Shown one piece after another: positions 7,751 to 36,311 of a stretch of DNA of 64,000 nucleotides. The position numbers and the translations under genes are program-made. Every line of letters begins with the position of its first letter. Within the stretch, counting starts at the first letter, position 1. Under the pieces are notes generated by a model, which saw only the letters and a program-made list of their open reading frames with translations, was not told the DNA's origin and made no database searches. The stretch lies in assembly GCF_000422785.1 (NCBI RefSeq), contig NZ_AUGS01000010.1, positions 1-64,000 on the forward strand, given 5' to 3'. The DNA comes from Pseudovibrio exalbescens DSM 16456. Its GTDB lineage: Bacteria; Pseudomonadota; Alphaproteobacteria; Rhizobiales; Stappiaceae.

Positions 7751-7863
7751 TCCATTTCCACCCAAGATTGTTTAACCGGTGCTCCGGTTATCCTAATTCT
7801 CGTCCAATATAAGACCAAAAATAAACATATCGCAACTTTGGTTTGACAAAAAATAATAGATGT

Positions 7864-7877
7864 AATACCAAAATACC
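7864..7877. promoter_or_regulatory. Candidate NanR operator
   Basis: Two AATACC units (7864-7869 and 7872-7877) lie eight bases apart. On the other strand they read as tandem GGTAT repeats. E. coli NanR binds tandem GGTATA repeats with 8-9 base periodicity. The site sits between the divergent nanA and nanR genes, downstream of a TTGACA element at 7843-7848. Confidence 0.5.
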
Positions 7878-7944
7878 TAATTCGGATGGTGAACTCCTGA
7901 ATCGCAGGGGCTATAACCAGATCACAACAACTCGGGAGGGTCCT

Positions 7945-8703
7945 GTGAGTGATCAAGCTGAAAAAGTAATAGGTAAAGACGAAGGGGTTCGTGCGTCCGA
8001 AGCCATGGCCAGAATGTTGATCCATGAGATCAAGCTGGGAGCGCTCAGTGTGGGCGATCCATTGCCGACCGAACGAGAACTATGCGAGCGGTTCAACGCG
8101 TCGCGTCCGACGGTTCGTGAGGCCATCGCGCAAATGCAAATGAGTGGCTACGCCACATCTGGCGGAGGCAAACGCCCAAGGGCTGACAAGCCCACAGTTG
8201 GCAAAATCATCGTTTCCGCCGCCGATCATATTCGCGAAGCATTGGGCGATGCGGAGGGCGGGGCGCAGTTGGAGCAGCTACGCCAGTTTCTGGAATGCGG
8301 TGCCATTCGTGAGGCGACCCGCAAAGCCAACAACATGAGCATCGCCAAGATCAAGCAAGCGCTTGATGCAAATTACGCAGCCATTGGAACCGAAGATTTC
8401 GGCCGGACAGATATCGCCTTCCATCGCAGCATCTTGTCTGTGGTCGGTAACGCGTTGATCCTCGCGCTGCATGACAATTTCGTAGACCTCATGCTGTCGC
8501 ATCGTCCTCAGCATACCGACCAACTGGCCCACGACCAGGTTGTCTACGAAGAACACAGGGAGATGTACGAAGCCATCCTGGCAGGAGACGCCGGCAGGGC
8601 CTCGGACATTTTGGACCGGCATTTGGAGCGGTCCTATCGATCCCGCCTTTCACCACCAAGCAAGGCCATCGTTAAAGGGGCGGACGACGAAACGTCTGGC
8701 TAA
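7945..8703 (+). CDS. nanR: GntR/FadR-family regulator of the sialic acid genes
   Basis: The protein has an N-terminal winged helix (LPTERELCERFNASRPTVREAIAQMQMSGY) and a C-terminal all-helical FCD ligand domain with FHRSILSVVGN and a late HLERSYRSRL helix, which fits the NanR group. 252 residues from the GTG at 7945, which has GGGAGG six bases upstream; the longer in-frame start at 7843 overlaps the putative operator and has no ribosome site. It heads the siaPQM-nanEK-nagBA operon (35-base gap to siaP) and is divergent from nanA. Sialic acid as effector is inferred from context. Confidence 0.85.
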   Translation: MSDQAEKVIGKDEGVRASEAMARMLIHEIKLGALSVGDPLPTERELCERFNASRPTVREAIAQMQMSGYATSGGGKRPRADKPTVGKIIVSAADHIREALGDAEGGAQLEQLRQFLECGAIREATRKANNMSIAKIKQALDANYAAIGTEDFGRTDIAFHRSILSVVGNALILALHDNFVDLMLSHRPQHTDQLAHDQVVYEEHREMYEAILAGDAGRASDILDRHLERSYRSRLSPPSKAIVKGADDETSG

Positions 8704-8738
8704 CGGGGTCCTATCACTTTTCTACAGGGAGGTAGATT

Positions 8739-9704
8739 ATGAAACTCTTCAAAACACTTATGGCGGCGACCGCTTTGGTTGGCCTGGGGCTTGGAGCCGC
8801 TGCGGCCCAGACCGAGATTTCGGTCGGTACTCAGGATAACGAAGCATCCTACGTCTACAAGGGCATCATGGCCGCCAAGGACAAGCTGGAAGAGGTTTCC
8901 GGTGGCGAGATGACGCTCACCGTTTTCCCAAGCGCGCAGCTTGGCGATTTCAAGACCATGACCTCCCTGATGCAAGCCGGCGAGTTGGGCGCGGTCATCA
9001 CCGGTTACCCGGACATGAGCTACATGATTCCGGAGTTGAAGCTGATCGGTGCCCCGTATGTGGTTAATAACTTCGACCATCTTCAAGAGATCCTTGACGG
9101 ACCCTTTGGCGATAAGATGGACGAGGAGTTCATGAAGCGGGGCATCAAGCAACTTGATGTGTGGTACTATGGTACGCGCCACATGACATCCAACAAGCCG
9201 ATCAACTCCATTGAAGACATGAAGGGCTTGCGTGTTCGCACGCCAAACGTCCCGTTCCTGATTGCATTTGCTGAAAACACGGGTGCATCACCTGCCCCGG
9301 TTGCTTTCCAGGAGGTTTATCTGGCCTTGCAGACCAATCAGGTTGATGCTCAGGAAAATCCACTGCCTACCATTGACGCAATGAAGTTCTACGAGGTGCA
9401 GAGCCACATCGCACTGACAGGCCATTTCGTTGCTTCTGCTGCGGTCAATCTCTCGGCCAGCCTGTGGCAAGACTTGTCCGATCAGGAAAAGGCTTGGGTG
9501 GAAGAAGCCTTCCTGGCCGGTGGTGATGTTGCGGATATGGCGACCATCAAAGCCGAGCAAGACCTTCTGGAGGACTTCAAGGATCGCGGTTTGACCATTA
9601 CCGAACCAGATCGTGTCCCATTCCAGCAGGCCATGAAGCCTTACTATGACGAACTGGAAGAACAGTTCGGCAAAGGCTCTATTGCAGCGCTGATCGGTAA
9701 ATAA
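8739..9704 (+). CDS. siaP: Sialic acid TRAP transporter, substrate-binding protein
   Basis: A periplasmic DctP-family receptor of 321 residues that captures the substrate and hands it to the membrane subunits. It has a cleavable signal peptide (MKLFKTLMAATALVGLGL, predicted cut after AAAAQ) and the family arginine motif MKGLRVRTPNVP, whose Arg binds the substrate carboxylate. GGAGG precedes the ATG. Sialic acid as substrate is inferred from its place between nanR and nanEK-nagBA. Confidence 0.88.
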   Translation: MKLFKTLMAATALVGLGLGAAAAQTEISVGTQDNEASYVYKGIMAAKDKLEEVSGGEMTLTVFPSAQLGDFKTMTSLMQAGELGAVITGYPDMSYMIPELKLIGAPYVVNNFDHLQEILDGPFGDKMDEEFMKRGIKQLDVWYYGTRHMTSNKPINSIEDMKGLRVRTPNVPFLIAFAENTGASPAPVAFQEVYLALQTNQVDAQENPLPTIDAMKFYEVQSHIALTGHFVASAAVNLSASLWQDLSDQEKAWVEEAFLAGGDVADMATIKAEQDLLEDFKDRGLTITEPDRVPFQQAMKPYYDELEEQFGKGSIAALIGK

Positions 9705-9719
9705 GATCAATAACTTGAG

Positions 9720-9748
9720 GCCGGTGCCGACGTGATAACGGTGCCGGC
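9720..9748 (+). promoter_or_regulatory. Hairpin between siaP and siaQ
   Basis: GCCGGTGCCG (9720-9729) pairs with CGGTGCCGGC (9739-9748), 10 pairs including two G-U, and only a short TTTC follows. It probably stabilises the siaP message or partly terminates it, so that the binding protein is made in excess. Confidence 0.55.
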
Positions 9749-9798
9749 TTTCATATTTCGACAACTGGTCGATCACTGAACGGATCGCGGGCGCGAAC

Positions 9799-10281
9799 AT
9801 GAATACCAGAAAACAGTACAGTTTGGAGGGCTGCGTTGCGGCCGTCCTGTTCATCATATTGATCTGCGTTGTCATGCTGCAGATCTTGGGTCGTGTTGAC
9901 TTGTTCACAGCGCCCGTCTGGACCGAAGAACTGGCCCGTTGGATTTGGGTCTGGATGGCCTTCATTGCGGTGGGGGAAGTTGAGCGTACGGATGGCCATC
10001 TGCGCATGGAGATGCTGGCAGATCTAATGGGGCCGCGGTTCAAGCTCATCCTTTATACCATTGTTGATATCATCTACCTCGCGGCGACCGCCTATCTGTG
10101 CCACATCGGCTACAAGACCATCATGCGGACCTGGTATAACGAGTCCGTCACTCTGCCGTTTACCGACGCAGCTCTTTATGCGTCTTACTTCGTCGCCTCG
10201 TTCCTCATCATGTATCGGGTTGCACAGCGGATCTACCGCCACGTGCGCGCGCTGAAATCCGCGCCGGCGGAAGGAGTGTAA
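9799..10281 (+). CDS. siaQ: Sialic acid TRAP transporter, small membrane subunit
   Basis: A 160-residue DctQ-family protein with four membrane helices. It contains the typical VWTEELARWIWVWMAFIAVGEVERTDGHLRMEML block, in which the W-T-E-E-L-A-R motif marks DctQ. It pairs with the large subunit as part of the sodium-coupled translocator. Here the subunits are separate genes, unlike the fused SiaQM of Haemophilus. It stops two bases before siaM. Confidence 0.88.
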   Translation: MNTRKQYSLEGCVAAVLFIILICVVMLQILGRVDLFTAPVWTEELARWIWVWMAFIAVGEVERTDGHLRMEMLADLMGPRFKLILYTIVDIIYLAATAYLCHIGYKTIMRTWYNESVTLPFTDAALYASYFVASFLIMYRVAQRIYRHVRALKSAPAEGV

Positions 10282-10283
10282 TC

Positions 10284-11558
10284 ATGACACTGATTGCTGT
10301 ATGCGCCATATGGTTGGTGATGGTGTTCATTGGCGTGCCCATCGGCATTGCGATGATCTTCGTGTCGCTCGGCTACTTCCTGTATTCCGGTTTTGGTATC
10401 AATTTCGCAGCGGAATTGATGGTCAACGGTCTCAATTCCTTTCCCATTCTGGCGGTGCCGTTGTTCCTTCTTGCGGCCGCCATCCTGAACAGCGCCGGGA
10501 TTACGAACCAGCTCTTTGGTTTTGCGCGGGCGCTTGTGGGGCGTATGCCGGGCGGCCTTGGTCACGTTAACGTGTTGGCCTCTCTGTTCTTTTCTGGCAT
10601 GTCCGGATCAGCCGTGGCGGATGCGGGCGGGCTCGGAAAGATGGAAATAAAGGCAATGCGTGATGCAGGATATCCGGATGATTTTTCCGGATCTGTGACG
10701 GCAGCCTCCTCCATGATCGGGCCTTTAGTTCCCCCAAGCATCACGATGGTGCTCTACGGGGTGATCTCCAACACCTCCATTGGCCAGCTTTTTCTTGGCG
10801 GTGTGGTGCCGGGGTTCTTGTGTGCCGGTACGCTGATGATCATGGTCTATGTGTTGGCGCGCAAATATGATTTTCCCAGAGATCGTCCGTATGCAGCCAA
10901 GGAAGTGGCTGGTATGTTCGTGCGGTCGTTCCCGGCGTTGCTGACACCTGCCGTGATCGTTGGTGGCATTTTCAGTGGCATGTTCTCTCCCACTGAAGCC
11001 GCAGCGGTTACTGTGGTCTATGCATTGTTGATTGACCTGTTCATCTACCGCGAGATGACATTTAAAAAGCTTTGGAACGCCATCTACGAGACGGCATCCA
11101 CATCGGCGGCCATTGCGACCATCATTGCAGGCGTGAACCTTTTGGGGTTCGTTCTGGCGCGCGAGCAAGCGCCGCAACAAATCGCCTCGCTGTTCCTAGG
11201 CTTCATCGACAGTCCGATCACGTTTCTGATTGCCATCAACCTCCTGATTTTTGTGTTGGGCGCATTTATCGAGAGTCTGGCTATCCTTCTCATCGTTGTC
11301 CCCATTCTCGTGCCGGTTTCCCTGAGCTACGGGATCGATCCGGTCCATTTCGGCATCATCACCGTGCTCAACCTCATGATTTCAACACTGACACCGCCCA
11401 TGGGCATGTCCTTGTTCGTGGTCGCCAAGGTGGGTGACATTTCCTACCACAAGCTGGCCAAGGCGATCCTGCCGTGGCTGATCCCGCCCTTTGTGGTGTT
11501 GGCCCTGGTTTGTGTGTTTCCGGTACTGGCCACCGGACTGCCGTCCTTGCTGAAGTAG
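10284..11558 (+). CDS. siaM: Sialic acid TRAP transporter, large membrane subunit
   Basis: A 424-residue DctM-family permease that forms the sodium-driven channel. Recognisable parts are NSFPILAVPLFLLAAAILNSAG, SGMSGSAVADAGGLGKMEIKAM, a PLVPPSITMVLYG loop, and LTPPMGMSLFVV near the C-terminus. GGAAGGAG precedes the ATG. It follows siaQ directly and precedes nanE by 18 bases. Confidence 0.92.
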   Translation: MTLIAVCAIWLVMVFIGVPIGIAMIFVSLGYFLYSGFGINFAAELMVNGLNSFPILAVPLFLLAAAILNSAGITNQLFGFARALVGRMPGGLGHVNVLASLFFSGMSGSAVADAGGLGKMEIKAMRDAGYPDDFSGSVTAASSMIGPLVPPSITMVLYGVISNTSIGQLFLGGVVPGFLCAGTLMIMVYVLARKYDFPRDRPYAAKEVAGMFVRSFPALLTPAVIVGGIFSGMFSPTEAAAVTVVYALLIDLFIYREMTFKKLWNAIYETASTSAAIATIIAGVNLLGFVLAREQAPQQIASLFLGFIDSPITFLIAINLLIFVLGAFIESLAILLIVVPILVPVSLSYGIDPVHFGIITVLNLMISTLTPPMGMSLFVVAKVGDISYHKLAKAILPWLIPPFVVLALVCVFPVLATGLPSLLK

Positions 11559-24189: not shown

Positions 24190-26112
24190 TCAGGCGGGAG
24201 CGGCGAGACGTACACTGACGGCATCATCCACACGGGCCAGCGGCTCTTCAAGATCTTCACCGATGAACACCAGGAATTCCGCCGGCGCATCCGTGCCGCG
24301 ATAGCGTGTGAGCTGTACGGAATTGGGAACGTGTTGGCACACCCATAATCCGTTCTCCTGCCCGAGCCTCACCAGACCCTTCACACGCAGGACGGTGGGC
24401 GGCAGTGCGAGAAGGAACGCCTCAAGTGCATCCTTTTCGATCTGCCGGGAGGGGTGCCAGATCTTACTACTGATGCCGTAGTGATGATGGGTGGCACAGT
24501 GGTGCTCGTGGCCATCATGACTGCATCCGCAGGGGGTGGGGGCGGCTATCTTTTGCGGGCCTTCAAAATTGACACCGTAGAGCGTGCGCGGCGAAATATC
24601 ACCATCTGTGGTCAGGTGCACTCTGCCAAACGGATTGAGATGGTGAATGGTCTGCTTGAGTGCCTCCACCTGAGGCGCTGCCGCCAAATCCACTTTGTTG
24701 ATCAGGATCGTATCGGCGACAGCGATCTGATCGCGCATGATGTCATAGGTTTCCAGTCCAATGTTGGCGTTAAGCGCGTCCAGAATGCAGGTTACGGATG
24801 AGAACTCCAATCGATCCTCCAGTTCCGATAGCTCTGACAGCAGGTTGGCCGGATTGGCGAGACCGGTTGTTTCCACCACTATAAAATCGGGCTGGTAGCT
24901 CTGACAGATCAAATCGATTGCCGCAGTCAGGTTGTCAATCAATGTGCAGCACACACATCCTTCATCAATTTCCTCGACGGCGTAGTGCTGACCAAGCAGC
25001 CGGGCATCCAATCCCTTTTCGCCGATTTCATTCTGGATGATGGCGACGAACTGGTTGCGGGCGGCCTGATGCTCGATGAAATGGGAAAGATAGGTGGTCT
25101 TGCCGGCCCCCAAGAAGCCGGTCAACAAAATGAGCTTCGGTTTTTCTTCAATGCCCATAGTGCTCTTGTCCATGGAGTGCCGGGCACCAGGCACCATGGG
25201 GTTCCACCACTTGGCCTGTTCATACCGGGCCGCAGCATTGGAATCGCGGCTCCACTCGCGCGGGTCAATTGGTGCGAAGGTGGGGTGAGAGCCATTGGCA
25301 GAAAATGTCCAACCGAGCCGTAGCGCGTCCAGAGTGTGCTCCGGGTCCAGTTTCTGCCAGACTTCGCCAGCCGTATCGAAACCGCGCTTTACATGATCCG
25401 TTTGCTCGCACTGGAGGGCGGTCGGAGCCTGCTCGAACGCATAGGCGAGAGAGGCGGCCAGTATCTCGAAGAAGGGATAGGCCAGATCATGACAGGGCAA
25501 GTCCTGATCCAGACCGCCCGGCTCAACAAGGGTTTGATGGGTGCCGTGCAGGCGTGCGGTAATGCCTTCCACTGCAATGGTTCTGTCTCGCTGCGGGGCG
25601 ATCAGAGAAAGAGTGAGTTGGTCATCCGGTGCAAGACGGACTTCAATCTCGCCAATATGGAAAAGCTGCGCGAATTCAGTGTGAATGGGAAAGTCCCGCA
25701 GCCGGTCCAGATAGCTTGCATCGTAGGCCGCAAAGCCGGCTGCCAGTGAGTAGGCGTTGATGATGTCGTCTTCTGGTTCAGGGAAGTAGAACAGGGAGAA
25801 CGTGGCCACGCCTTCTTTTCCAACTTGCTGCTCTGTAGAGGGGTAAAGGCCATAAATGCCCGTGCGGTCCTCAATGCGTGCCGTCAGACCCATTGGCGCT
25901 TGCGGACAGGCGCGCATGCCGCGCCAGCCCAGGCGTTGGCGCACGCCGGGTATGAAGTTGATGCGCATCATGGCTGCGCGTGGCAATTGGCCTGCGGCTG
26001 TAGCTGGATCTCGAGCGTATCCTGGAGGGAGAAGGCGAGTTAAATCAATCATCGTGACCCCATAAGCTGTTGGGCCCACCCGCGTCCTTGCCAAGGGACG
26101 TGGATGAGCCAT
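24190..26112 (-). CDS. COG0523 (CobW-type) GTPase fused to an unknown N-terminal domain
   Basis: A 640-residue protein. Residues 326-640 are a G3E GTPase of the COG0523 metallochaperone group: P-loop GFLGAGKTT (332-340), metal site GCVCC (385-389), ETTGLANP, INKVDL, then a Cys/His-rich loop at 528-545 and a CobW C-terminal domain. Residues 21-310 form a domain I do not recognise, with no clear motif. The family inserts zinc, cobalt or other metals into client enzymes. It begins eight bases after the Tat-exported MBL-fold gene, so the likely client is in this operon. The start could instead be Met21 (26052). Confidence 0.85.
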   Translation of the reverse strand: MAHPRPLARTRVGPTAYGVTMIDLTRLLPPGYARDPATAAGQLPRAAMMRINFIPGVRQRLGWRGMRACPQAPMGLTARIEDRTGIYGLYPSTEQQVGKEGVATFSLFYFPEPEDDIINAYSLAAGFAAYDASYLDRLRDFPIHTEFAQLFHIGEIEVRLAPDDQLTLSLIAPQRDRTIAVEGITARLHGTHQTLVEPGGLDQDLPCHDLAYPFFEILAASLAYAFEQAPTALQCEQTDHVKRGFDTAGEVWQKLDPEHTLDALRLGWTFSANGSHPTFAPIDPREWSRDSNAAARYEQAKWWNPMVPGARHSMDKSTMGIEEKPKLILLTGFLGAGKTTYLSHFIEHQAARNQFVAIIQNEIGEKGLDARLLGQHYAVEEIDEGCVCCTLIDNLTAAIDLICQSYQPDFIVVETTGLANPANLLSELSELEDRLEFSSVTCILDALNANIGLETYDIMRDQIAVADTILINKVDLAAAPQVEALKQTIHHLNPFGRVHLTTDGDISPRTLYGVNFEGPQKIAAPTPCGCSHDGHEHHCATHHHYGISSKIWHPSRQIEKDALEAFLLALPPTVLRVKGLVRLGQENGLWVCQHVPNSVQLTRYRGTDAPAEFLVFIGEDLEEPLARVDDAVSVRLAAPA

Positions 26113-26120
26113 GGTGTGGA

Positions 26121-27278
26121 TTAGCCGAAGGTGATGGTGTCACCGTTGCCCAGATACGCGGTGTCCTTGGAGCGGTGCTGAGCAGTGCCGCGCACTACGG
26201 GATAGCCGGCCTGAATGAACTTGTTGGCGCAGACTAGGCCGGTACAGTGATTGCAGCCGATCACGTCAAAATCGTAGTTGCGCAGCGAGATCACCAGATC
26301 ATCGTATTTCGGATCCCAGTCATCGAAGGGCGAAATGTGAAGCCCGCCATAAATGCCGTAGAAGTTGTCGTTCTCATACTTGAGTTCATTATAGGCTGTT
26401 TCAGCAAACTGGATGATGCCCTGGTGGCAACAGCCGGTCACGCTGACGAGGCCCTTGTCCTTCACGTTGCAATAGATGGACTGTTCGCCGAACACCCGGC
26501 AGATGATGGGAACCGGGAATACGTAGGTGGCAAGCCCCGGGATGATCTTGTTGAGGCCATTCTTGACCTCGATCAGCTTGCCGGTATGACCGGAATCCTT
26601 GATGTATTGTTTGCCTTCTTCGTAAAAGCCCTCCGGAATGTAGATGGTGATATCAGGGTCATACTTCAGGGTGACCGGTAAGCCCCAGTAGTGATCGAAG
26701 TGCTCGTGAGAAATGATCAGAGCCTCGATTTCCTTGTTGCGCAGCATGGCATCGATGCCTTCGCGCTTGAAGCATTCGTCCATCCATTTGTAGGACCAAC
26801 CGCTGTCCAGCAGGAACTTGCGCTTTGTGCCGTCCAGCTCCTCAATGTCCAGAAGCGCGGCAAAGCCGCCCGCATTTTCTACACTGACGCACTCCTGCTC
26901 AATGATGCTCCATGCCTTTTCCAGATCATGGGGCAGGTACTGTTTGATCTTGGCAATGCCTTCCTCGTAGGACCCCTTGCCAAGACCTTTGCCATTGCCA
27001 AAGGGGGGCCAGTTGTAGTCGTACTGGTTCACCAACAGCCCGCCAGCCTTTTTGATGTCTCCCATAAGGACGGCATTTTCAAACCAGCTGGTTTCGCTGA
27101 TGTTGGTCACATGGACGCTTTTCAGTGTGCCGATGTCGGTCATCTTGCGATCAACATTCGGGAAATGGGCTTTGCGCAATGGGGAGTAGGAATACAGCCC
27201 CATGACACCAACCAGACCGAAACCCACTCCGGTGGTGGCGCCCTTCAAAAAGGTCCGGCGATCAAATGACTTGTTCAT
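26121..27278 (-). CDS. Tat-exported metallo-beta-lactamase-fold hydrolase
   Basis: A 385-residue protein. It begins with a twin-arginine signal (DRRTFLKG at 6-13, then a glycine-rich hydrophobic stretch), so it is exported folded. The metal site is SHEHFDHYWGLP (HEHFDH at 191-196), with TGCCHQG, YGGLHISPFDD and IGCNHCTG further on. The pattern resembles the subgroup annotated as dihydropterin-type MBL proteins (MJ0296-like). Substrate unknown. The ATG at 27278 with AGGAGA upstream is preferred to 27389. It lies 19 bases after the membrane protein and 8 before the metallochaperone gene. Confidence 0.85.
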   Translation of the reverse strand: MNKSFDRRTFLKGATTGVGFGLVGVMGLYSYSPLRKAHFPNVDRKMTDIGTLKSVHVTNISETSWFENAVLMGDIKKAGGLLVNQYDYNWPPFGNGKGLGKGSYEEGIAKIKQYLPHDLEKAWSIIEQECVSVENAGGFAALLDIEELDGTKRKFLLDSGWSYKWMDECFKREGIDAMLRNKEIEALIISHEHFDHYWGLPVTLKYDPDITIYIPEGFYEEGKQYIKDSGHTGKLIEVKNGLNKIIPGLATYVFPVPIICRVFGEQSIYCNVKDKGLVSVTGCCHQGIIQFAETAYNELKYENDNFYGIYGGLHISPFDDWDPKYDDLVISLRNYDFDVIGCNHCTGLVCANKFIQAGYPVVRGTAQHRSKDTAYLGNGDTITFG

Positions 27279-27297
27279 CGTGATCTCCTGTGTTCGG

Positions 27298-28710
27298 TCA
27301 GTTGATGATGGTGATGGCAGAGTAGGCTGCCGGCAGGATGGCAACGACGACGAAGTAGACTGCAACACCAGCCACAACGCCTGCACCAACGCCCCAACCG
27401 TAAGACCGAGTTGGCTTTTCAGCTTCCAGCTCGGCTGCAGCAGCAGCGTGGTCCTGGTCGATTTCCTCCTGAGTCTTGGGCACCATCTTCCACATGGGCC
27501 AGTTGTCCATGAACCAGTGATGGACCAGCATGATATTGACGAGCCAGATCATCGGGATCATCGGGAACTGTTGCGGGTGAGAAAACCCTTTCTGCGTGCC
27601 GAGGAACAGGTGAGATGTCTTGTAGTAGACGATGTAAAGCAGCACGGCGCCAACAATGGAAATCACCGTGCGAACAGCGACATTCACCGGCATGGAGTAC
27701 TTGCGTGGCCAGTTGTCGAAATAGAACGACAGGGCCAATGCAGGGACCAGCCAGAAGATGGCCATTTCACCCACATGCAACCAACGCCAGTCCGGAGAAA
27801 ACTCACGGCGTGTTCCGCGAACGGCTTCACCCCATGTCAGTTCCTGCGCGAAGTACAGGAAGAAGTTGAGAGCCAGCGCAATTGCAATGATGCCAAAGAA
27901 CATGGCAAAGCGCCGGGCCCACGCGTTCTTTATCAAATTGAACGGATAGCGTTGCCAGATGGTTTCCACCAGCCAGATCACCACGGTACAGCACATGATC
28001 CAGGCGATATGGAAGTTGCCGGAGACGGTATCTGCGAAGTTCTCCCAGTATGGCGGGGCGATGGACGTAAAGGACTGCCATGGCTGATAGAGGATGCCCA
28101 TGTGAGAGTGCATCGTGATGAAATACACAATCGTGGACAGGAAGAAGGTGACCAGCAGAATGGTCAGGCCGCGTACCGGTTGCTTCAGTTTCTCCCATGG
28201 TGCGTTTTCCATGGCAACAACCCATGCCGGAGACAGCCAGGATGCGATTGCCGCGAACATCAAGATGGCCAGTGAGGCGTACTCGATAGCGAAGAAGGAC
28301 GTGATGCCCGGCAGTTTTTCAAGTTGCTCCGGATTGAAGTAGGCCAGCCCGTAGTTGCCCAGCAAACCTTCGAAGAAACCCTTGATCAGGGTAACCAGAA
28401 TGAGAGCCGAAACCGCTGTCAGCACAAGGCCCTTGAGCACTGGATGGGCCGTGTTCAACCAACTGCGCCGGAACGGCCAGTAGTCGAAGATGTAGACCAT
28501 CCAGATCATCATGATCAGCCACCAGCGGCAGTACATATAACCCACATAGGGTGTGTACATGCGCATCAGGCCGCGGGGATCGTGAAAGATCCACCAGGTG
28601 CCATAAAAGACGGCCAGAACCAGCACAAGGCTGACTATACCGGCTGTCAGGCCAGAGGTGCGCTTGACCAGCTTGCGCTCCTCCAGATATCCAACGCCAA
28701 AGCGTTCCAT
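27298..28710 (-). CDS. Polytopic membrane protein of unknown function
   Basis: A 470-residue protein with about 11 predicted membrane helices. I do not recognise the family. It is rich in Trp, Tyr, Met and His in or near the helices: CRWWLIMMIWMVY, FITMHSHMGI, GNFHIAWIMCC, RWLHVGEMAIFW, MLVHHWFMDNW. That is more like a haem, metal or quinone-binding membrane protein than a simple transporter. A charged segment (about 415-445) precedes the last helix. The ATG at 28710 has GGGAGG upstream. It precedes the MBL-fold gene by 19 bases and follows the GntR gene by 157 bases. Confidence 0.8.
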   Translation of the reverse strand: MERFGVGYLEERKLVKRTSGLTAGIVSLVLVLAVFYGTWWIFHDPRGLMRMYTPYVGYMYCRWWLIMMIWMVYIFDYWPFRRSWLNTAHPVLKGLVLTAVSALILVTLIKGFFEGLLGNYGLAYFNPEQLEKLPGITSFFAIEYASLAILMFAAIASWLSPAWVVAMENAPWEKLKQPVRGLTILLVTFFLSTIVYFITMHSHMGILYQPWQSFTSIAPPYWENFADTVSGNFHIAWIMCCTVVIWLVETIWQRYPFNLIKNAWARRFAMFFGIIAIALALNFFLYFAQELTWGEAVRGTRREFSPDWRWLHVGEMAIFWLVPALALSFYFDNWPRKYSMPVNVAVRTVISIVGAVLLYIVYYKTSHLFLGTQKGFSHPQQFPMIPMIWLVNIMLVHHWFMDNWPMWKMVPKTQEEIDQDHAAAAAELEAEKPTRSYGWGVGAGVVAGVAVYFVVVAILPAAYSAITIIN

Positions 28711-28867
28711 GGTTGCCTCCCTAGCAACGTGGTTTGTTTCCTTCGTCAGGGCCATGAAGGACAGGACGGCCCACTCAAGACACAGAGGGTTCGTTCCGAT
28801 ACTCGCGTCCGCATCGGTTCAAAGTGTCTGGAGGTTTTGCAAAGCTGCAGGTCAGACCCAGCGGGCT

Positions 28868-29647
28868 TTAGGGCGGCGCCAGGCTGTGTTGTTCTGCAGC
28901 GATAATCGGAGAAAGGGCGATGCCCCGTAGCCGTGCCAATGCAACGGCCACGTTCAGGATTTTGACTTTCACCGCCTTTTCCATCAGCGCCGTGTCACGG
29001 GCCTTGAGGGCTTTGAGTACAAGCACAAAGTCCGCAAACATCTTGTTGCGATCCTCCTCTGCAAACGAGTCAAACCGCGGGAACAGAAAGGAGGAACTGG
29101 CACATATGGAACAGGACACATCACGAATGATGGCGTTCTGCAAAGCGCCCGAAACCAGAGCAAAGAATTCTTCAGAGTTGCGCCGTAAGGCGGGCCAGTT
29201 GTGGTCCAGTATGGCACGGCCGATTTTGCCCGTGCATTCCTCAAGCTGCGTGATCTGCTTGGAGGAGATGACATGGCATGCGGTGACGAATACCGGCGGC
29301 AGGAACAGATAGGCTGCCTCCAGCTTTTCCATCAGAACCGGAGCGCTGTCCTTGTCGCTGGTGTTTTCCTGAGTGCCATTGGCCGCGTCGGCCAGATAAC
29401 ACCCGCTGCCGCGCTTGATTTGAACCACACCGCTTGCTTCCAGCTTCTTCAGCACACTGCGAACCGTATTACGGCTGACTTCAAACTCCTCGCAGAGAAG
29501 GCGTTCAGCCGGCAGTCGCTGACCCGCGGTCCACCGGCCTTCGGCAATGAGATTGGAGAGCTGGGCATGCAATACAGCTTCCCGGCTGGCATTGATTGAA
29601 GAAGATTGAATTGGTACTACCAATTTACTTGCTCCCGAAGTATTCAT
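28868..29647 (-). CDS. GntR/FadR-type transcriptional regulator
   Basis: 259 residues: winged helix (LPAERLLCEEFEVSRNTVRSVLKKLEASGVVQIKRGSGCYL, about 44-84) and a C-terminal FCD-like helical domain. It is the first gene on the minus strand of the unassigned cluster and is divergent from a sensor gene. Two perfect TTGGT/ACCAA palindromes, one in its own first codons and one in the intergenic region, are probable binding sites, so autoregulation and control of both sides is likely. Effector unknown. Confidence 0.85.
   Translation of the reverse strand: MNTSGASKLVVPIQSSSINASREAVLHAQLSNLIAEGRWTAGQRLPAERLLCEEFEVSRNTVRSVLKKLEASGVVQIKRGSGCYLADAANGTQENTSDKDSAPVLMEKLEAAYLFLPPVFVTACHVISSKQITQLEECTGKIGRAILDHNWPALRRNSEEFFALVSGALQNAIIRDVSCSICASSSFLFPRFDSFAEEDRNKMFADFVLVLKALKARDTALMEKAVKVKILNVAVALARLRGIALSPIIAAEQHSLAPP
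29611..29623. promoter_or_regulatory. Candidate GntR operator 1 (inside the regulator's 5' codons)
   Basis: TTGGTACTACCAA is a perfect 6-1-6 palindrome of the FadR-type TGGTNNNACCA class. It overlaps codons 9-13 of the regulator gene. Confidence 0.65.
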
Positions 29648-29690
29648 AGGCCAATAATCACTCTAAATAGGCATTTATTAAAGTATTTTA

Positions 29691-29703
29691 TTGGTGCTAC
29701 CAA
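29691..29703. promoter_or_regulatory. Candidate GntR operator 2 (divergent promoter region)
   Basis: TTGGTGCTACCAA repeats operator 1 with one base changed and lies 80 bases from it, in the AT-rich region between the regulator and the divergent sensor gene. Confidence 0.7.
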
Positions 29704-29833
29704 AAATCTACATAACTCATATAAGTAGTTGTCATTAGTGATTGAGAGGCGTGCTTTGTGCCACAACTAAAGCAGCATTACCGCCCGGCAAGCTGGTGTT
29801 CGGCTACGGCGTTTGCTTCACTGGAGATAGGAC

Positions 29834-30739
29834 ATGGGGATTAAATCCAGACTGGATAAGCATATGGTGGGCTGTTCCATATTACTTTGGAAAATCAATC
29901 TGTTGAAGCAGAGCCTACATGTCTCCATGCACGCTGGATGGGACCAGTTTCCCTACGATGTTGCAGGCATCATGAAGAATCCGGGTTACAGACAAAGTGT
30001 CGTTCAGGCAGATGATCTGCCTGGTCTTGATGCGGCGTTGACAACGATTCGCAAAGGGCGAAGCAGTTCTGTGGTTTTTCGCATTACCTCCTGTGACAAT
30101 CTGACCTACTGGTGTTTGTTGGCAGGCAGGGCGCAGGAGGGCGCTGCGGATGCGATTTACGGCTCTCTGGTGTGTATCGAAGACCGACTCATAAAGCAGT
30201 TGGATATGGAAAGCCCGGTATCAGCGGACCGGCCTTTTGAAGGCCAGACGGGAGATGATGTCGCCGTTTCGACAGCGGAGCTGGTTGGATTGAAACGGGC
30301 CTTGAGCGGCCATCGGGATCTGCATGGTCGCCTCGAAGCGTTATGTGAGTGGAACGAGGGGCAACTGTTTGAGGCTGTTTTGTTTTCCGACGTGAAGCAG
30401 GATATCGGCCGGGTTGAGGTGCACAGAGCAGGTGCCGCAGTTGCTGAGCTGCCGCAAGGCAAAAGCTACCCTTACGACGGCACAATCGCCGAGATGATCG
30501 TGTCGCTGGACCTGCGGTATATGGTGGTTGAAGACACCATGGAGAGCCTCAAGCCAATCGACTGGGCGCTTTTTGTGCCCCACGGCATTCGCTCTTATTT
30601 TGCCGTGCCTTGCTTCGAACAAGGCCAGATCCGAAGCGTTCTGATTTTTTGCTCACGGGAAGCGAGCGAGTTCTCCATGGATCAGGAGTATTTCTTTCAC
30701 AAGGTGAGCGAGATGTTCATGGACGGGTTGCAGGCTTAG
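29834..30739 (+). CDS. PAS/GAF-like sensor protein without output domain
   Basis: A 301-residue soluble protein. The first 125 residues look PAS-like (SILLWKINLLKQSLHVSMHAGW, RITSCDNLTYWCLLAGRAQ, YGSLVCIED), and the last 150 resemble a GAF domain (LEALCEWNEGQLFEAVLFSDVKQ, RSYFAVPCFEQGQIRSVLIFCS). No kinase, cyclase, phosphodiesterase or DNA-binding part follows, so it may bind a ligand and pass the signal to a partner protein. GGAGATAGG precedes the ATG. Divergent from the GntR gene with shared operators. The domain names are my reading of weak patterns. Confidence 0.7.
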   Translation: MGIKSRLDKHMVGCSILLWKINLLKQSLHVSMHAGWDQFPYDVAGIMKNPGYRQSVVQADDLPGLDAALTTIRKGRSSSVVFRITSCDNLTYWCLLAGRAQEGAADAIYGSLVCIEDRLIKQLDMESPVSADRPFEGQTGDDVAVSTAELVGLKRALSGHRDLHGRLEALCEWNEGQLFEAVLFSDVKQDIGRVEVHRAGAAVAELPQGKSYPYDGTIAEMIVSLDLRYMVVEDTMESLKPIDWALFVPHGIRSYFAVPCFEQGQIRSVLIFCSREASEFSMDQEYFFHKVSEMFMDGLQA

Positions 30740-30823: not shown

Positions 30824-32449
30824 TCAGTTGTTTTCCAGAAGATCTATCTTTTGTTCTGCCAGCACCCTGTCCAGCCAGTGCGGATCCATTTCCGGTACGG
30901 ATGCCAGAAGGCGGGCGCTGTAGTCCGGATGAGGCGGCGAGAACACTTCATCGCGCGTGCCTTGCTCCACGATCTTGCCGTGCTGCATGACCACCACATC
31001 GTCGGCGATGGCTTCAACGGTGGCCAGATCGTGGGTGATGAACATGTACGTCAGGCCATATTTTTCTTGCAGCTTGAGCAGAAGTTTCAAAATGCCTTCC
31101 GCGACTAACTGATCGAGAGCCGAGGTGACCTCATCGCAAATGATGAACCGAGGTTCGGCAGCAAGGGCCCGTGCAATGCCGATGCGCTGCTTTTGCCCAC
31201 CGGACAATTCTGTAATACGGCGATTGAGATAGATGTCCGGATCCAGCTCGATCTGTTCCATCAGAGACCGCAAGCGCTCTTCTTTTTCTGCTCCATGCAG
31301 GCCGAGGTAAAAGGTCAGGGGACGGCCGACCACATCGCGCACTCGGTGGCGTGGATTGAGAGCCGTGTCCGGCATCTGGTAGATCATCTGCACATCGCGC
31401 AGGATTGTCTTGTCACGGTCTTGAAGCCGAGGAGGGAGAGCCTCGCCCTGCCAGCGGATTTCTCCGCCCGGCGAATGGGGCAAGAGGCCAGTGATGACCT
31501 TCGCCAATGTTGACTTGCCGGATCCGCTTTCACCAACCACGGCAACGGTTCGCTGCGGAAGGATGTCGAAGCTGATGCTGTCGAGCGCCTTGAACTCCCC
31601 GTAGTGGGCTGTAACCTTGTCGATGGCCAGCAAAGGGGTTTTTTCGGGCCGAGGCCGGGTTTCACGGTGCAGGGTGCGCACCGCCCACAAGGACTTGGTA
31701 TAGTCTTCCTTGGGATTGGCCAGCATTTCTTCTGTGGGTGCTGTTTCCACCATGTGGCCGTCGCGCAGCACCATGATGCGGTCCGCCATTTGCGATACCA
31801 CGGCCAGATCATGGGTGATGTAAATGGCTGCGGTGTTGTGTTCTTTCACCACCTTGCGAATGGCAGCCAAAACCTCGATCTGGGTGGTGACATCCAGGGC
31901 CGTGGTCGGCTCATCGAAAATGATCAGATCCGGCTTGCAGGACATGGCCATGGCAGTCATGGCCCGCTGCAACTGTCCTCCGGAAACCTGGTAGGGATAA
32001 CGAAAGCCGATTTCCTCCGGGTTGGGCAGTTGCATTTCGCGGTAAAGTTGGATGGCGTCAGCCTCGGCCTGCTTGCGTGACCGTACCCCATGTTCCAGCG
32101 GTGCCTCGGTGAACTGGTCGATCAGCCGGTGCGAGGGATTGAAACTTGCGGCTGCGGACTGCGCCACATAGGCAATGGAGTTGCCATGGAGATGGCGCAA
32201 AGTGCTTGCCGATGCGCCAACCAACTCTTGATCCCTGAAACGGATTGACCCGCTGCTGATACGGCATCCATCGCGGGTGTAGCCCATGGCTGCCAGACCG
32301 AGCGTGGACTTGCCAGCTCCAGACTCGCCAACCAGACCCAGTACTTCACCGGGTTTCAGGTCGAGATCGATGCCTTTCACGATTTCCGTCGTGCCGTGTT
32401 TATGGCGTGCTTGAATATGCAGATCTCGGACTGTCAGAATATTTGTCAT
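30824..32449 (-). CDS. Oligopeptide-type ABC transporter, fused dual ATP-binding protein
   Basis: A 541-residue fusion of two ATPase domains, equivalent to DppD plus DppF. First domain: Walker A GESGAGKST, signature SGGQLQRAMTAMAM, Walker B LIIFDEPTTALD. Second: Walker A GESGSGKST, signature LSGGQKQRIGIARAL, Walker B FIICDEVTSALD. The fused arrangement is common in alphaproteobacteria. The ATG at 32449 has GAGGTG upstream; an in-frame GTG at 32458 is also possible. Last gene of the operon, tail-to-tail with the PAS/GAF-like gene. Confidence 0.92.
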   Translation of the reverse strand: MTNILTVRDLHIQARHKHGTTEIVKGIDLDLKPGEVLGLVGESGAGKSTLGLAAMGYTRDGCRISSGSIRFRDQELVGASASTLRHLHGNSIAYVAQSAAASFNPSHRLIDQFTEAPLEHGVRSRKQAEADAIQLYREMQLPNPEEIGFRYPYQVSGGQLQRAMTAMAMSCKPDLIIFDEPTTALDVTTQIEVLAAIRKVVKEHNTAAIYITHDLAVVSQMADRIMVLRDGHMVETAPTEEMLANPKEDYTKSLWAVRTLHRETRPRPEKTPLLAIDKVTAHYGEFKALDSISFDILPQRTVAVVGESGSGKSTLAKVITGLLPHSPGGEIRWQGEALPPRLQDRDKTILRDVQMIYQMPDTALNPRHRVRDVVGRPLTFYLGLHGAEKEERLRSLMEQIELDPDIYLNRRITELSGGQKQRIGIARALAAEPRFIICDEVTSALDQLVAEGILKLLLKLQEKYGLTYMFITHDLATVEAIADDVVVMQHGKIVEQGTRDEVFSPPHPDYSARLLASVPEMDPHWLDRVLAEQKIDLLENN

Positions 32450-32459
32450 TGTTGGCACC

Positions 32460-33278
32460 TCAATCCTTCAAGCCGCTGGCTTTGTGCAGCATCCAGTCCA
32501 CGACAAAGTTGATGCCGATGGTGAGCACAGCGATGGCTGCCGCAGGGATCAACGGTGTGATGTCGCCAAACGTGATCAGGGTTGCGTTTTCCTTCACCAT
32601 GGAGCCCCAGTCCGCTGTTGGCGGTTGAATGCCCAAGCCGAGGAACGACAGCGCGGCGATGAACAGAAAGACGAAGCAAAACCGCAGGCCGAACTCAGCC
32701 ACGAGCGTGGAGGTGATATTGGGCAGAATCTCGCGGGAGATGAGCCAAAGGTTGCCTTCTCCCCGCAACCGGGCCGCTTGAACGAAGTCCAGTACGACAA
32801 TGTTCATTGAAGACGCCCGTGCCAGACGAAAGACCGGTGCCACATAGATCACGGCGATCACCAACACCATGTTGGGAATGGATGGACCCACGATCGCCAG
32901 CAGCATCAAGGCCAGAATGAGGGGCGGAACGGCCATCAATACATCTACCGCGCGGCTGACCACCTGATCTACCCAGCCCCCTTTGAGGGCCGCATAAATA
33001 CCCAGTGTCGCTCCAACAGTGAATGCGATTGCGGTGGTCAGCAAAGCAAGACCAACCGTATTGCGCGCACCGTAGATGACCCGGGAAAGCATGTCCCGGC
33101 CCAGATTGTCGGTGCCCAACAAGTGTACGCTGTCCCATGGCATATAAGCGGCACCAACAACTTCGGTTTCGCCGTAAGGGGCAAGGAAGGGTGCAAAAAC
33201 GCCCATGATGGCGACGCTGAGAATGATGAAAAGCCCCAGCAGCGCTGTGGGAGGAGTTGTTTTGAAAAAGCGAAGCAT
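32460..33278 (-). CDS. Oligopeptide-type ABC transporter, permease (DppC-like)
   Basis: A 272-residue inner-membrane permease with the N-terminal OppC segment and the motif LLGTDNLGRDMLSRVIYGARNTVGLAL typical of the second permease, six helices, and the EAA-like loop VQAARLRGEGNLWLISREILPNI that contacts the ATPase. It starts nine bases after the first permease. Confidence 0.93.
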   Translation of the reverse strand: MLRFFKTTPPTALLGLFIILSVAIMGVFAPFLAPYGETEVVGAAYMPWDSVHLLGTDNLGRDMLSRVIYGARNTVGLALLTTAIAFTVGATLGIYAALKGGWVDQVVSRAVDVLMAVPPLILALMLLAIVGPSIPNMVLVIAVIYVAPVFRLARASSMNIVVLDFVQAARLRGEGNLWLISREILPNITSTLVAEFGLRFCFVFLFIAALSFLGLGIQPPTADWGSMVKENATLITFGDITPLIPAAAIAVLTIGINFVVDWMLHKASGLKD

Positions 33279-33287
33279 GATCCCCTC

Positions 33288-34244
33288 CTAAGCTTTGGCG
33301 CGCAGGCGCGGGTTGGACAGGATCGACAAGACATCAGCCAGAATGTTCAGGCTGATGTACGTGGCCGCAAAGAACAGCCCCACGGCCTGTACAACGGGGA
33401 AGTCGCGCTTGGCAACGGCATCCACGAGCAACTGGCCCAGACCGGGGTAGACGAAGACGACTTCGACCACCACCACACCTACGATCAGGTAGGCGAGGTT
33501 GATTGCTACAACGTTGATGATCGGCGGCAAGGCGTTGGGCAGTGCATGTCTGAGAATGACTTTGTACCGGGGTACGCCCTTGAGGCGGGCCATTTCGATG
33601 TACGGTTCAGCAAGAACATTGATGATGGCAGCTCGCGTCATTCGCATCATGTGCGCGATCACGACAAGGATCAGCGTCAGCGCGGGCAGGAACGTTCTGT
33701 AGAGCGCTTCAATGAATGGCGTGGCGTCATCAATGCGCGCCAAAGATGGGAACAGCGGTATGTTGACCGCAAACAGGAGGATGAGTACGTAGGCGACAAA
33801 GAATTCAGGCAGGGAAATCGACGACAAGGCAAAAACGTTCGCCAGCCGGTCGAAGATGGAATTGCGGAACAACGCTGCCAGAATGCCGAGCGTGACAGCA
33901 ACCGGTACAGCAATGGCGGCAGCGTACCCCGCGAGAAACATGGTGTTCTTCAGACGGGGAGCAACCAGCTCAGCCACATCGCGGCGGTTGGCAAGGGAAA
34001 CACCGAAATCGCCCTGAAACACACCGGCAACCCATTCGAGATATCTGATTACTGCCGGTTGATCGAGACCGAGCTCACGCCGGAAGGCGGCAACGGTTTC
34101 CGGTGTTGCGGCCTGACCAAGTATTTCTTGCGCCAAGTCGCTTGGAAGCAGTTCAACTCCTATAAAGATCAAAAGTGACACGATAAACAGTGTCACAATG
34201 CCAAGGCCGATGCGCCTTAGCACAAGTTTTTGGATTCCAGACAT
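33288..34244 (-). CDS. Oligopeptide-type ABC transporter, permease (DppB-like)
   Basis: A 318-residue permease with VLRRIGLGIVTLFIVSLLIF at the N-terminus, the RRELGLDQPAVIRYLEWVAGVFQGDFGVSL block characteristic of DppB, and the ATPase-contact loop IEMARLKGVPRYKVILRHALPNALPPI. The start at 34244 (MSGIQKLV) is preferred to 34283, which would begin inside the upstream hairpin. Confidence 0.93.
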   Translation of the reverse strand: MSGIQKLVLRRIGLGIVTLFIVSLLIFIGVELLPSDLAQEILGQAATPETVAAFRRELGLDQPAVIRYLEWVAGVFQGDFGVSLANRRDVAELVAPRLKNTMFLAGYAAAIAVPVAVTLGILAALFRNSIFDRLANVFALSSISLPEFFVAYVLILLFAVNIPLFPSLARIDDATPFIEALYRTFLPALTLILVVIAHMMRMTRAAIINVLAEPYIEMARLKGVPRYKVILRHALPNALPPIINVVAINLAYLIVGVVVVEVVFVYPGLGQLLVDAVAKRDFPVVQAVGLFFAATYISLNILADVLSILSNPRLRAKA

Positions 34245-34257
34245 ATTACCCCTCAAT

Positions 34258-34283
34258 ATGCCTCCCGCCTGTGCGGGAGGCAT
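34258..34283 (-). promoter_or_regulatory. Hairpin between the binding-protein and permease genes
   Basis: A perfect 11-bp stem (ATGCCTCCCGC / GCGGGAGGCAT) with a four-base loop and no T-run. Position after the first gene suggests protection of the binding-protein message. Confidence 0.7.
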
Positions 34284-34321
34284 AGACCATCACGTGAGTT
34301 AAGACCTGACAGTGAAGGGCG

Positions 34322-35908
34322 CTAGCTGACCCACCAACGCTCGATGAAGCGCATACCGTCAAGATCCCAGAGCTGCGTGACCTTTTCAGGCATATGAACG
34401 CGCTTGGTCATGGCAGATACGTACTGGCCAAAGGCCGGAATGATTGTCGAGCCTTCATCGGACACGATCTGTTGCATTTCAAAGTACATGTTCCGGCGGG
34501 TTTCGGTGTCGAGTTCCGCTCTTGCCTTGACCAAAAGCTCGTTGAAGCGTTCGTGATTGAAGCGGGACTCGTTCCAGTCTGCGCCAGCGGCGTAGGCTGT
34601 CGTGAACATGAGATCAGCTGTTGGGCGGCCACCCCAATAGGAAGTGCAGAATGGTTTCTTCAGCCAGACATTGGACCAGTAACCGTCGGCAGGTTCGCGC
34701 ACGACCTCAATGTTGATGCCGGCAGCCTTGGCGGTTTCAGAGAACAGCAAGGATGCATCAACGGCACCGCCAAATGCGTTTTCCGCTGTGTGCAGTTTGA
34801 CGTTGAGCGTATCGAGCCCGGCCTGTTTCAGGTGGTACTTGGCTTTTTCCGGATCGAATGCACGGGGGGCCAGTTGATCGTTGTAGAATTGCATGGAGGA
34901 GGCGATGGGCTGGTCATTGCCGACCTTGCCGTAGCCCTTCAAGACCTTGTCGACGAATTCCTGGCGGTTGATTGCATTCTTGAGTGCCAGCCGCACATTG
35001 TTGTCGTCAAACGGAGCTGTGTCCGAATGCATCGGCATGACATAGTGCAGTGTGCCGTCCTGCGTATGCAGCTTCACATTCGGGTTGCGCTTGAGCATGT
35101 GAACGGTTTTGAGGTCCGGCCTATCGATCAGATCTACTTCGCCGGTCAACAGGGCGTTCATACGCGCCGCGGGATCGGCAATGGTCAGGATCTCAACGCG
35201 GTCAATGTGAGCACGGCCCTTTTTCCAGTAGTCGTCGCGGCGCTTGAGCACAGCGCGCACGCCGGCTTCAAACGATTCCACCACATAGCCGCCGGTGCCG
35301 ATCATGGTGTCCGGATCGATCGTGCCATCGGCTTGCGCGGGTCGAATGCCCAGATGGTAATCGTTAAAGATGAGGGGGAAGTCCGCATTGCCCTCTGTCA
35401 GGGTGAAGACAACGGTGTTATCGCCATCAGCCTTGATGTCTTCGATGGACTTCAGCAACGGCTTCGCCGCCGACTTGCTGTTTTCGCCCAAATGGTGCCG
35501 GATGGATGCAATGACGTCAGCGGCAGTGACCTTCTTGCCATCTGAAAAGGTTGCCTCATCGCGCAGCCGGAATGTCCAGGTTTTTGCATCTGCGGATGCT
35601 TCATAGCTTTCCGCCAGATCCGGTTGACCGGATCCATCTGGTGCGAGCTCAACAAGGGTATTGAAGACTGCGTAACCGGTGGCCAGCATAAAGTCGTTGT
35701 TGAACGTTGCAGGATCAAAGGTGTCTGAGGTTGACCCCTGCGTGAAACCGATACGCAAGGTGCCGCCTTTCTGCGGTGCTATTGCGTGAGCTTCGCCAAC
35801 AAGCAGGCTTGCGGAAGAAACAGTTGCGCCCATTGCCAATGCGCCCGCCATGAATGTGCGGCGGCTGATGGTACCGGTCGCAAGATCCTGTTTCAACTTC
35901 TCAATCAT
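34322..35908 (-). CDS. Oligopeptide-type ABC transporter, substrate-binding protein
   Basis: A 528-residue SBP family 5 protein with a twin-arginine-like export signal (ISRRTFMAGALAMG near residue 20), then GGTLRIGFTQGSTSDTFDPATF and the cluster 5 blocks TWTFRLRDEATFSDGKKVTAADV and NNVRLALKNAINRQEFVDKV. Substrate unknown; the family takes peptides, opines and other solutes. The ATG at 35908 has AGGGAGAAAG upstream. It starts 26 bases after the stop of an aldehyde dehydrogenase remnant on the same strand. Confidence 0.9.
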   Translation of the reverse strand: MIEKLKQDLATGTISRRTFMAGALAMGATVSSASLLVGEAHAIAPQKGGTLRIGFTQGSTSDTFDPATFNNDFMLATGYAVFNTLVELAPDGSGQPDLAESYEASADAKTWTFRLRDEATFSDGKKVTAADVIASIRHHLGENSKSAAKPLLKSIEDIKADGDNTVVFTLTEGNADFPLIFNDYHLGIRPAQADGTIDPDTMIGTGGYVVESFEAGVRAVLKRRDDYWKKGRAHIDRVEILTIADPAARMNALLTGEVDLIDRPDLKTVHMLKRNPNVKLHTQDGTLHYVMPMHSDTAPFDDNNVRLALKNAINRQEFVDKVLKGYGKVGNDQPIASSMQFYNDQLAPRAFDPEKAKYHLKQAGLDTLNVKLHTAENAFGGAVDASLLFSETAKAAGINIEVVREPADGYWSNVWLKKPFCTSYWGGRPTADLMFTTAYAAGADWNESRFNHERFNELLVKARAELDTETRRNMYFEMQQIVSDEGSTIIPAFGQYVSAMTKRVHMPEKVTQLWDLDGMRFIERWWVS

Positions 35909-35934
35909 ACTCTTTCTCCCTGTAAAAATGGTGT

Positions 35935-36311
35935 TCAAATACGAAGCGATTTGCTTTTTGTCTTTGTGTACGCGTCCAGTGCCTCCAGTCCTTTTCCGCG
36001 GCCAATGCCGCTGGTCCAGCAGTCATTTACAGTGACCCGACCACAATCAACGGTGTGCGCGATACGCAATTCTCGCCCGTTGTCTTGCGTGTAAATACTG
36101 GCGACGTTTCCGTATTCGGTGTCATTTGCCAAGGATACGGCAGTATCCTCGCAGTCGAATGTCCGAGCCGCCAGAACAGGTCCGAATATTTCTTCTTGCA
36201 CAGCAGGTTCGTGGGCGGGGAGAGCGTCTAAGATTGTTGGTTCGTAGAACCAGCCTTTTCCCGTCTGCGGGTCTGTGGTCTTGCGCCCGCCATTCGAAAT
36301 CTTGCTATGCT
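35935..36311 (-). pseudogene. Aldehyde dehydrogenase, C-terminal remnant
   Basis: About 122 codons of an ALDH C-terminus are readable in one frame: GGRKTTDPQTGKGWFYEPTI, then QEEIFGPVLAARTF, CGRVTVNDCW and a final stop at 35935. The conserved EEIFGPV motif identifies the family. Upstream of about 36311 the frame meets a stop and no ALDH sequence continues, so roughly the first three quarters, with the catalytic Cys and Glu, are missing. It sits upstream of the ABC transporter operon on the same strand, which suggests a deletion or rearrangement that joined this operon to new upstream DNA. Confidence 0.85.

Follow-up and report, generated by a model that had tools for sequence, protein, structure and literature searches.

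A conserved gene cassette of Pseudovibrio exalbescens and its candidate periplasm-facing metallohydrolase–membrane complex

A stretch of 64,000 nucleotides from Pseudovibrio exalbescens DSM 16456 (contig NZ_AUGS01000010.1, positions 1 to 64,000; hereafter the window) carries a five-gene cassette at 24190-30739, which an earlier reading of the DNA (the original prediction) had put forward as an undescribed system. Its centre is a membrane protein, here called MEM, encoded beside a metallo-beta-lactamase (MBL)-fold protein and a COG0523-type GTPase. The gene set is one conserved unit: the MBL gene lay directly 3' of MEM in 80 of 80 related loci (two of these MBLs are cut by a contig end) and the GTPase gene lay within 7 kb in 62 of the 68 loci with at least 3.6 kb downstream. 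The simplest account is a periplasmic metallohydrolase that is complexed with, or feeds, MEM and has its own dedicated metal chaperone. To the full reading, in which the metallohydrolase and MEM form a periplasm-facing complex, a dedicated metallochaperone serves it and GntR acts as an autoregulated switch, we give a probability slightly below one half.

The original prediction fared well on linkage. The MBL and membrane proteins do go together, the genes co-occur in other genomes, and no match of the set to a known pathway was found: MEM has no named family and neither protein was assigned to a characterised pathway. The listings and abstract openings of open-access PMC text apparently hold nothing on the gene set. 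Two families for which no Pfam name was found, MEM and the N-terminal domain of the GTPase protein (N-domain), form the core of this one system; the novelty lies in the families and their linkage, not in a function.

The conserved unit, its core and its regulator

A contig scan with exact peptide patterns of MEM returned 112 relatives, and 80 loci were kept. By record title these belong largely to sulfate reducers (Desulfovibrio, Pseudodesulfovibrio, Desulfotignum, Desulfatitalea and Desulfogranum) and other anaerobes; further hosts include Malonomonas, Desulfuromusa, Syntrophaceae, Bilophila, Parasutterella, Sulfurospirillum and Arcobacter, and the phototrophs Rhodospira, Roseospira, Rhodobium and Rhodoplanes. 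The carriers are marine, sediment and gut anaerobes and phototrophs. Across several phyla, MEM and MBL relatives were 58-85% and 59-88% identical, respectively, to the proteins of the window. The MEM alignment (A3) comprised 77 of the 80 loci together with the window, L012 and L013, and left out L056 and L059, whose tblastn matches each contain one stop, and L038 (same genome as L013). The MBL alignment (A4) held 43 of the 78 complete MBLs of the loci plus the window, L012 and L013, and the GTPase alignment (A5) held 61 of 62 complete GTPases plus the window and L013, leaving out L038, L012 (a stop in the coordinates used) and truncated or interrupted proteins; alignment A6 also leaves out L085.

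The MBL protein (385 aa, 26121-27278, minus strand, ATG start) matched Pfam Lactamase_B (E 2e-6) and, in profile searches of the PDB, entries 7dck (1.1e-15), 2p4z (1.7e-12) and 3h3e (Tm1679; 3.1e-5), which we take to be COG1237-type MBL hydrolases. The match spans the metal motifs. All of the HxHxDH, GCxH and HC(T/S)G signatures are present (HEHFDH, TGCCHQG and NHCTG in the window), and H191, H193, D195, H196, H285, H314 and H344 were invariant in the 46 aligned MBLs. Judged by these motifs, the protein keeps a hydrolase-type metal site and hydrolysis is its predicted activity. It differs from the COG1237-type hydrolases in a putative twin-arginine translocation (Tat)-type leader, ~100 extra N-terminal residues, several invariant Trp and its strict linkage to MEM. 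Of the proposed Tat-exported MBL protein, the fold was borne out; its export is predicted from near-invariant twin arginines (R7 in 46/46, R8 in 45/46) and a weak Tat-signal match (Pfam, 0.11; TIGR01409, 0.022).

The GTPase is the C-terminal part of a fusion protein (640 aa, 24190-26112, minus strand) with the N-domain at ~25303-26055, cobW at 24631-25131, CobW_C at ~24244-24474 and a His-containing linker between. Residues 328-623 hold the Pfam matches to cobW (E 3.7e-40) and CobW_C (E 2e-10); both families were matched in 63 of 63 GTPases at E ≤1, the protein of the window being above both cut-offs, and the cysteines of the CxCC motif of the cobW domain (C386, C388 and C389) were invariant in all 63. 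The AlphaFold2 (AF2) model (pLDDT 86.4) matched YjiA (1nij) in Foldseek (E 7.9e-16); a viral fold library was uninformative for this model. The protein resembles the COG0523 GTPases YjiA, CobW and ZigA in its domains, motif and fold, and differs from them in being fused to an unnamed N-domain and in reaching the cut-off of none of the 14 NCBIfam models listed. The N-domain was modelled confidently (block pLDDT mostly >90). No Pfam match above cut-off was found in residues 1-311 of the protein of the window or in the separate N-domain of L056, and none to the N-domain was among the 25 most frequent of the 60 families in the 63 members, so that a rare one is possible. No PDB sequence match fell below E 1, and tautomerase-like PDB matches (E >1) were dismissed.

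The N-domain also occurs by itself. Six divergent loci (type B, L125-L130, as opposed to the 80 main-type or type A loci) show the order MBL, MEM and a separate N-domain protein of ~240-335 aa, and a profile of the GTPase part matched nothing in these stretches. In four of the six well-flanked main-type loci that lack the GTPase (L056, L059, L061 and L076), a separate N-domain lies 5' of MEM; no N-domain was detected in the other two, L068 and L092. Because a separate N-domain adjoins MEM and MBL in these 10 loci without a fused GTPase, the shared core is, on sequence grounds, MBL, MEM and N-domain. Fusion of the GTPase to the N-domain marks the branch to which the window belongs, and the N-domain is probably a MEM/MBL partner that the GTPase joined later (a direction taken from an unrooted comparison). 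The likely order of assembly is MBL, MEM and N-domain, followed by the GTPase fusion, the GntR and sensor genes and the TonB genes. The dedicated metallochaperone fusion of the original prediction consequently stands in part: a COG0523-type GTPase accompanies the set, but the N-terminal part, separate in 10 loci, is not simply a chaperone. The system offers a COG0523 metallochaperone with a defined candidate client, and few clients of COG0523 proteins are known. In the loci labelled Rhodospira, Roseospira and Rhodospirillum (L056, L059, L061, L068 and L076), which lack the GTPase, MEM is shorter; a small secreted protein follows MBL in all of these except L068, with sub-threshold OpuAC matches in the two tested.

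The four minus-strand genes are tightly packed, as described earlier, with gaps of 8, 19 and 157 bases from the called starts. The last of them encodes a GntR regulator (28868-29647, minus strand; Pfam GntR, 1.5e-19) with a weak FCD-type ligand domain (2e-5, 25.4 bits vs. a cut-off of 24.3). A divergent PAS/GAF-like sensor gene follows (301 aa, 29834-30739, plus strand), whose product shows no recognisable output domain and only a sub-threshold Pfam GAF_2 match (0.18); a longer homologue in L034 passes PAS_9 (E 6.4e-8). Shared palindromes had been noted between the two genes, and two exact copies of TTGGTNNTACCAA were indeed present in the window, at 29611 and 29691 only (expected, 0.02). These palindromes, TTGGTACTACCAA (29611-29623) and TTGGTGCTACCAA (29691-29703), neither assigned to a strand, were recognised by their count in the window and their conservation in related loci. 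Relative to the called start of GntR, the related TGGTNNNACCA lay between -400 and +100 in 37 of 43 related loci, compared to 29 of 1955 control stretches of 500 bases. The restriction of TTGGTNNTACCAA to two sites and the enrichment of TGGTNNNACCA at GntR starts indicate that TGGTNNNACCA-type sites are a putative GntR operator and that the operon may be autoregulated, the evidence being phylogenetic. The site at 29611 falls within the first codons of the GntR open reading frame (ORF) as called. With FadR/PdhR-like regulators this GntR shares the GntR helix-turn-helix, an FCD domain just above cut-off and, presumably, the TGGTNNNACCA-type operator; it differs in passing the cut-off of none of the 25 NCBIfam models listed (33 were found).

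In the 66 loci with at least 3 kb upstream, GntR and sensor occurred together in 38, GntR alone in two and the sensor alone in none. This near-constant co-occurrence makes the sensor the first candidate for releasing GntR. The sensor was divergent in eight of the 38 loci and on the same strand in 30, so that the arrangement of the window is in the minority. A riboswitch link was rejected, as no Rfam riboswitch was found in the window; a cobalamin riboswitch was likewise absent there, and seven related loci gave one match, in L060, ~5 kb 5' of MEM. A TtrS-like kinase was also discarded as a general neighbour: such a kinase lies beside the cassette in Malonomonas (L025; Phosphonate-bd domain) and was recognised by eye in L012, a relative from the genus of the window, and the kinase matches do not establish it as general.

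The membrane protein and its sister family

MEM (470 aa, ~11 transmembrane segments, 27298-28710, minus strand) was called from an ATG start, and a second in-frame ATG lies upstream at 28755. No Pfam or NCBIfam family reached its cut-off in the 80 members searched. The AF2 model (pLDDT 80.4, pTM 0.84) contains 12 helices of at least 17 residues, 11 of which were counted by eye as membrane-spanning, in agreement with the 11-helix protein first proposed. The positive-inside rule would place the N-terminus inside and H201, H203, D307, R309, H312, E315, H367 and H378 in the periplasm. Many Trp and His were invariant in alignment A3, and H201 and H203 were kept in 80 of 80 type A MEMs; of the six type B MEMs, all or all but one keep them. 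Internal repeats of two transmembrane segments, suggested visually by a WPF...QP motif, were rejected because a five-segment hhalign comparison was unsupportive and its sole high score came from overlapping segments. A ureide permease identity was rejected as well, the match being below cut-off and found in 18 of 80 members. No MEM relatives were found in plasmids or viral contigs and no P1 relatives in viral contigs.

P1, an unnamed polytopic membrane family, is a sister of MEM with full-length homology (hhalign probability 98.9, E 1.8e-17). It was found, at E <1e-170, in 12 of 297 genomes in a sweep of the phylum of G867, which includes Desulfogranum (G856). Sweeps of these genomes gave a MEM-superfamily match in at least 25 and the N-domain in 18; the superfamily counts are lower bounds, since the MEM of G1151 (found in L130) was missed. 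W39, G47, H312, G371 and W404 are common to P1 and MEM, and H312 is kept in type A, type B and P1. By contrast, P1 has V and F where MBL-linked MEMs have H201 and H203 (six sampled proteins), and neither MBL nor the N-domain was found in the eight P1 loci searched (L100, at 7650-8945, L117, L118, L119, L120, L122, L123 and L124). The H201/H203 pair appears, from these alignments, to go with MBL linkage. Seven of the eight P1 loci lie near acyl-CoA ligases, CoA-transferases, thiolase, acyl-CoA dehydrogenase or methylmalonyl-CoA mutase, and P1 is possibly an acid permease. MEM may be an enzyme, a scaffold or a permease, and the genomic context of P1 favours a permease-like ancestor. In the membrane superfamily of MEM, the sister branch is placed in acid catabolism.

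Proposed mechanism and alternatives

In the mechanism that we consider, the GTPase would load Zn or a similar ion into the MBL protein in the cytoplasm. The folded MBL protein would exit through the Tat system and dock on MEM, whose invariant His, Asp, Glu and Arg would face the periplasm and form a site with it. This joint site could hydrolyse a small molecule or pass it into the membrane, the N-domain working on the cytoplasmic side. Bound at the TGGTNNNACCA sites, GntR would keep its own operon repressed, to be released by the cytosolic sensor or by a ligand. Where anaerobes carry an ExbB/ExbD/TonB set, as some do, the substrate or the metal may cross the outer membrane with energy input. 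A more specific version is possible, though doubtful: MEM and MBL would be a new two-part metalloenzyme, with a site built from the periplasmic His and the MBL metal, and would act, under anoxia, on a substrate that is small or associated with the membrane. Such an enzyme would have arisen when MBL joined the permease-like ancestor shared with P1, the metallochaperone being fused later.

Several observations weigh against this mechanism. Foldseek found no significant PDB fold for the MEM model, and MEM topology is a by-eye positive-inside reading of AF2 helices, not the output of a topology program; MEM could be a transporter only. The Tat leader of the MBL protein falls short of its NCBIfam cut-off (TIGR01409, 15.1 bits vs. 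16.7). Six of the 68 well-flanked loci lack the GTPase, its linker is not uniformly His-rich (at least four His in 31 of 63 members), and 26 of 66 loci have neither GntR nor sensor. TonB genes occur in a minority of loci and none was seen in the cassette of the window. Finally, G1104 and G1026 carry a GTPase-fused N-domain and no MEM match, which counts against a strict co-occurrence rule: the G1104 gene (L131) has neither MEM nor MBL in the 18 kb read, and the G1026 gene sits at a contig end (L132).

A somewhat unlikely alternative is that MEM is a permease for an organic compound, a carboxylate to go by the sister family, and that MBL only processes this compound in the periplasm before uptake. 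The full-length homology to P1 and the acyl-CoA genes of the P1 loci argue for it, as do a dCache chemoreceptor cluster in four loci (one member Pfam-tested) and ExbB/ExbD/TonB genes in at least 14 of 80. However, acyl-CoA genes lie near only five of 80 type A loci and one of six type B loci (a comparison tilted towards P1, from whose loci the queries were taken), the cassette of the window includes no catabolic enzyme, and P1 is itself only a putative permease. The TonB genes would also suit metal acquisition or homeostasis, with MEM and MBL handling a metal chelate and the GTPase receiving the metal. The COG0523 GTPase and its His-containing linker fit this explanation, which is nevertheless unlikely: no Rfam riboswitch lies in the window, the core occurs without the GTPase and, to our knowledge, the operator is of the GntR type and not a known metal-regulator box.

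A redox role, in which MEM would bind haem or quinone and work with MBL in a periplasmic redox reaction, is distinctly unlikely. The many invariant Trp and His and the mostly anaerobic hosts are consistent with it, and the best three Foldseek matches of MEM were alternative complex III subunits (ActC/ActF). Those matches are insignificant (E 0.09-0.29, TM-score ~0.16), and MEM has no significant sequence or fold match to haem/quinone membrane oxidoreductases of the NrfD/ActC kind in Pfam, NCBIfam or Foldseek. No cytochrome was recognised by eye among the recurring neighbour clusters, which were not annotated systematically, although an alcohol-dehydrogenase-like cluster does occur, in three loci and at scattered distances. 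Moreover, flavodiiron proteins carry an HxExDH motif, and that of MBL is HxHxDH. The redox cofactor that the original prediction had thought possible in MEM found no support in these results. A phosphodiesterase role for MBL on lipids held by MEM, in envelope lipid modification or transport, would agree with the COG1237 kind of fold and with a polytopic MEM that may face the periplasm; no lipid or glycan gene was recognised by eye in the recurring clusters, which were not tested systematically for them, and this role is very improbable.

Spread and genomic surroundings

Among relatives MEM is rare and patchy: it was found in four of 121 genomes, including that of the window (4.16 Mb), and the other three contain the same five genes in the same order. 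L012 and L013 share the divergent sensor, which in L014 lies on the same strand as the other genes. The cassette of L014 (G030, 8348-10932) is decaying: MEM is interrupted by four in-frame stops and MBL by one, and nearby lie an ExbB/ExbD stretch that looks broken and a short ORF resembling a TonB receptor (names given by eye). A class sweep of 385 genomes returned the window's own MEM and one spurious match (G309, L016; E 6.6e-4), rejected because its ORF looks unrelated; the phylum sweep found MEM in two of 398 genomes, again including that of the window.

The cassette is, by sequence comparison, in a variable region, since the left flank of genus member G008 aligns to window position 23976 and the likeness resumes at 36882 with different genes between. 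At this position G008 (L135, 5250-17434) contains another ABC transporter, a sulfatase-like gene and aminoethylphosphonate-like genes (names given by eye). An oligopeptide-type ABC transporter set, also named by eye, adjoins the cassette of the window at 30824-35938. It is apparently part of this variable region too, as its ATPase finds a best match of ~41% in the other 15 genomes of the genus. In a quick maximum-likelihood tree of MEM, the sequences labelled Alphaproteobacteria need at least four changes on starred branches, and the window clade groups with alphaproteobacterial metagenome-assembled genomes (MAGs; L017, L018, L024 and L026) in a starred set with Desulfovibrionia and Desulfuromonadia. 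The tree suggests horizontal spread, a claim limited by MAG labels and paralogues; one genome holds two MEM copies (L020 and L060).

Neighbour genes were called by a home-made procedure that is weaker in high-GC loci, and their clusters were mostly named by eye. A small protein lies 5' of MEM in at least 24 of 80 loci and a small secreted protein occurs in at least 15 of 80. No Pfam family was matched in the members tested of the small proteins beside MEM (for example L061, 9563-9973; L126, 9044-9304; L034, 9638-9925), and none was seen in the window; several have an RRxF/RKxF-like N-terminus, and an LGID-like segment is present. A NifX-like cluster was found in seven loci, near MEM in six. 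These NifX/NafY-like genes begin 0.55-0.85 kb 5' of MEM (L041, L049, L050, L052, L055 and L081); Nitro_FeMo-Co was tested in Pfam for L055 only, and the others were assigned by clustering.

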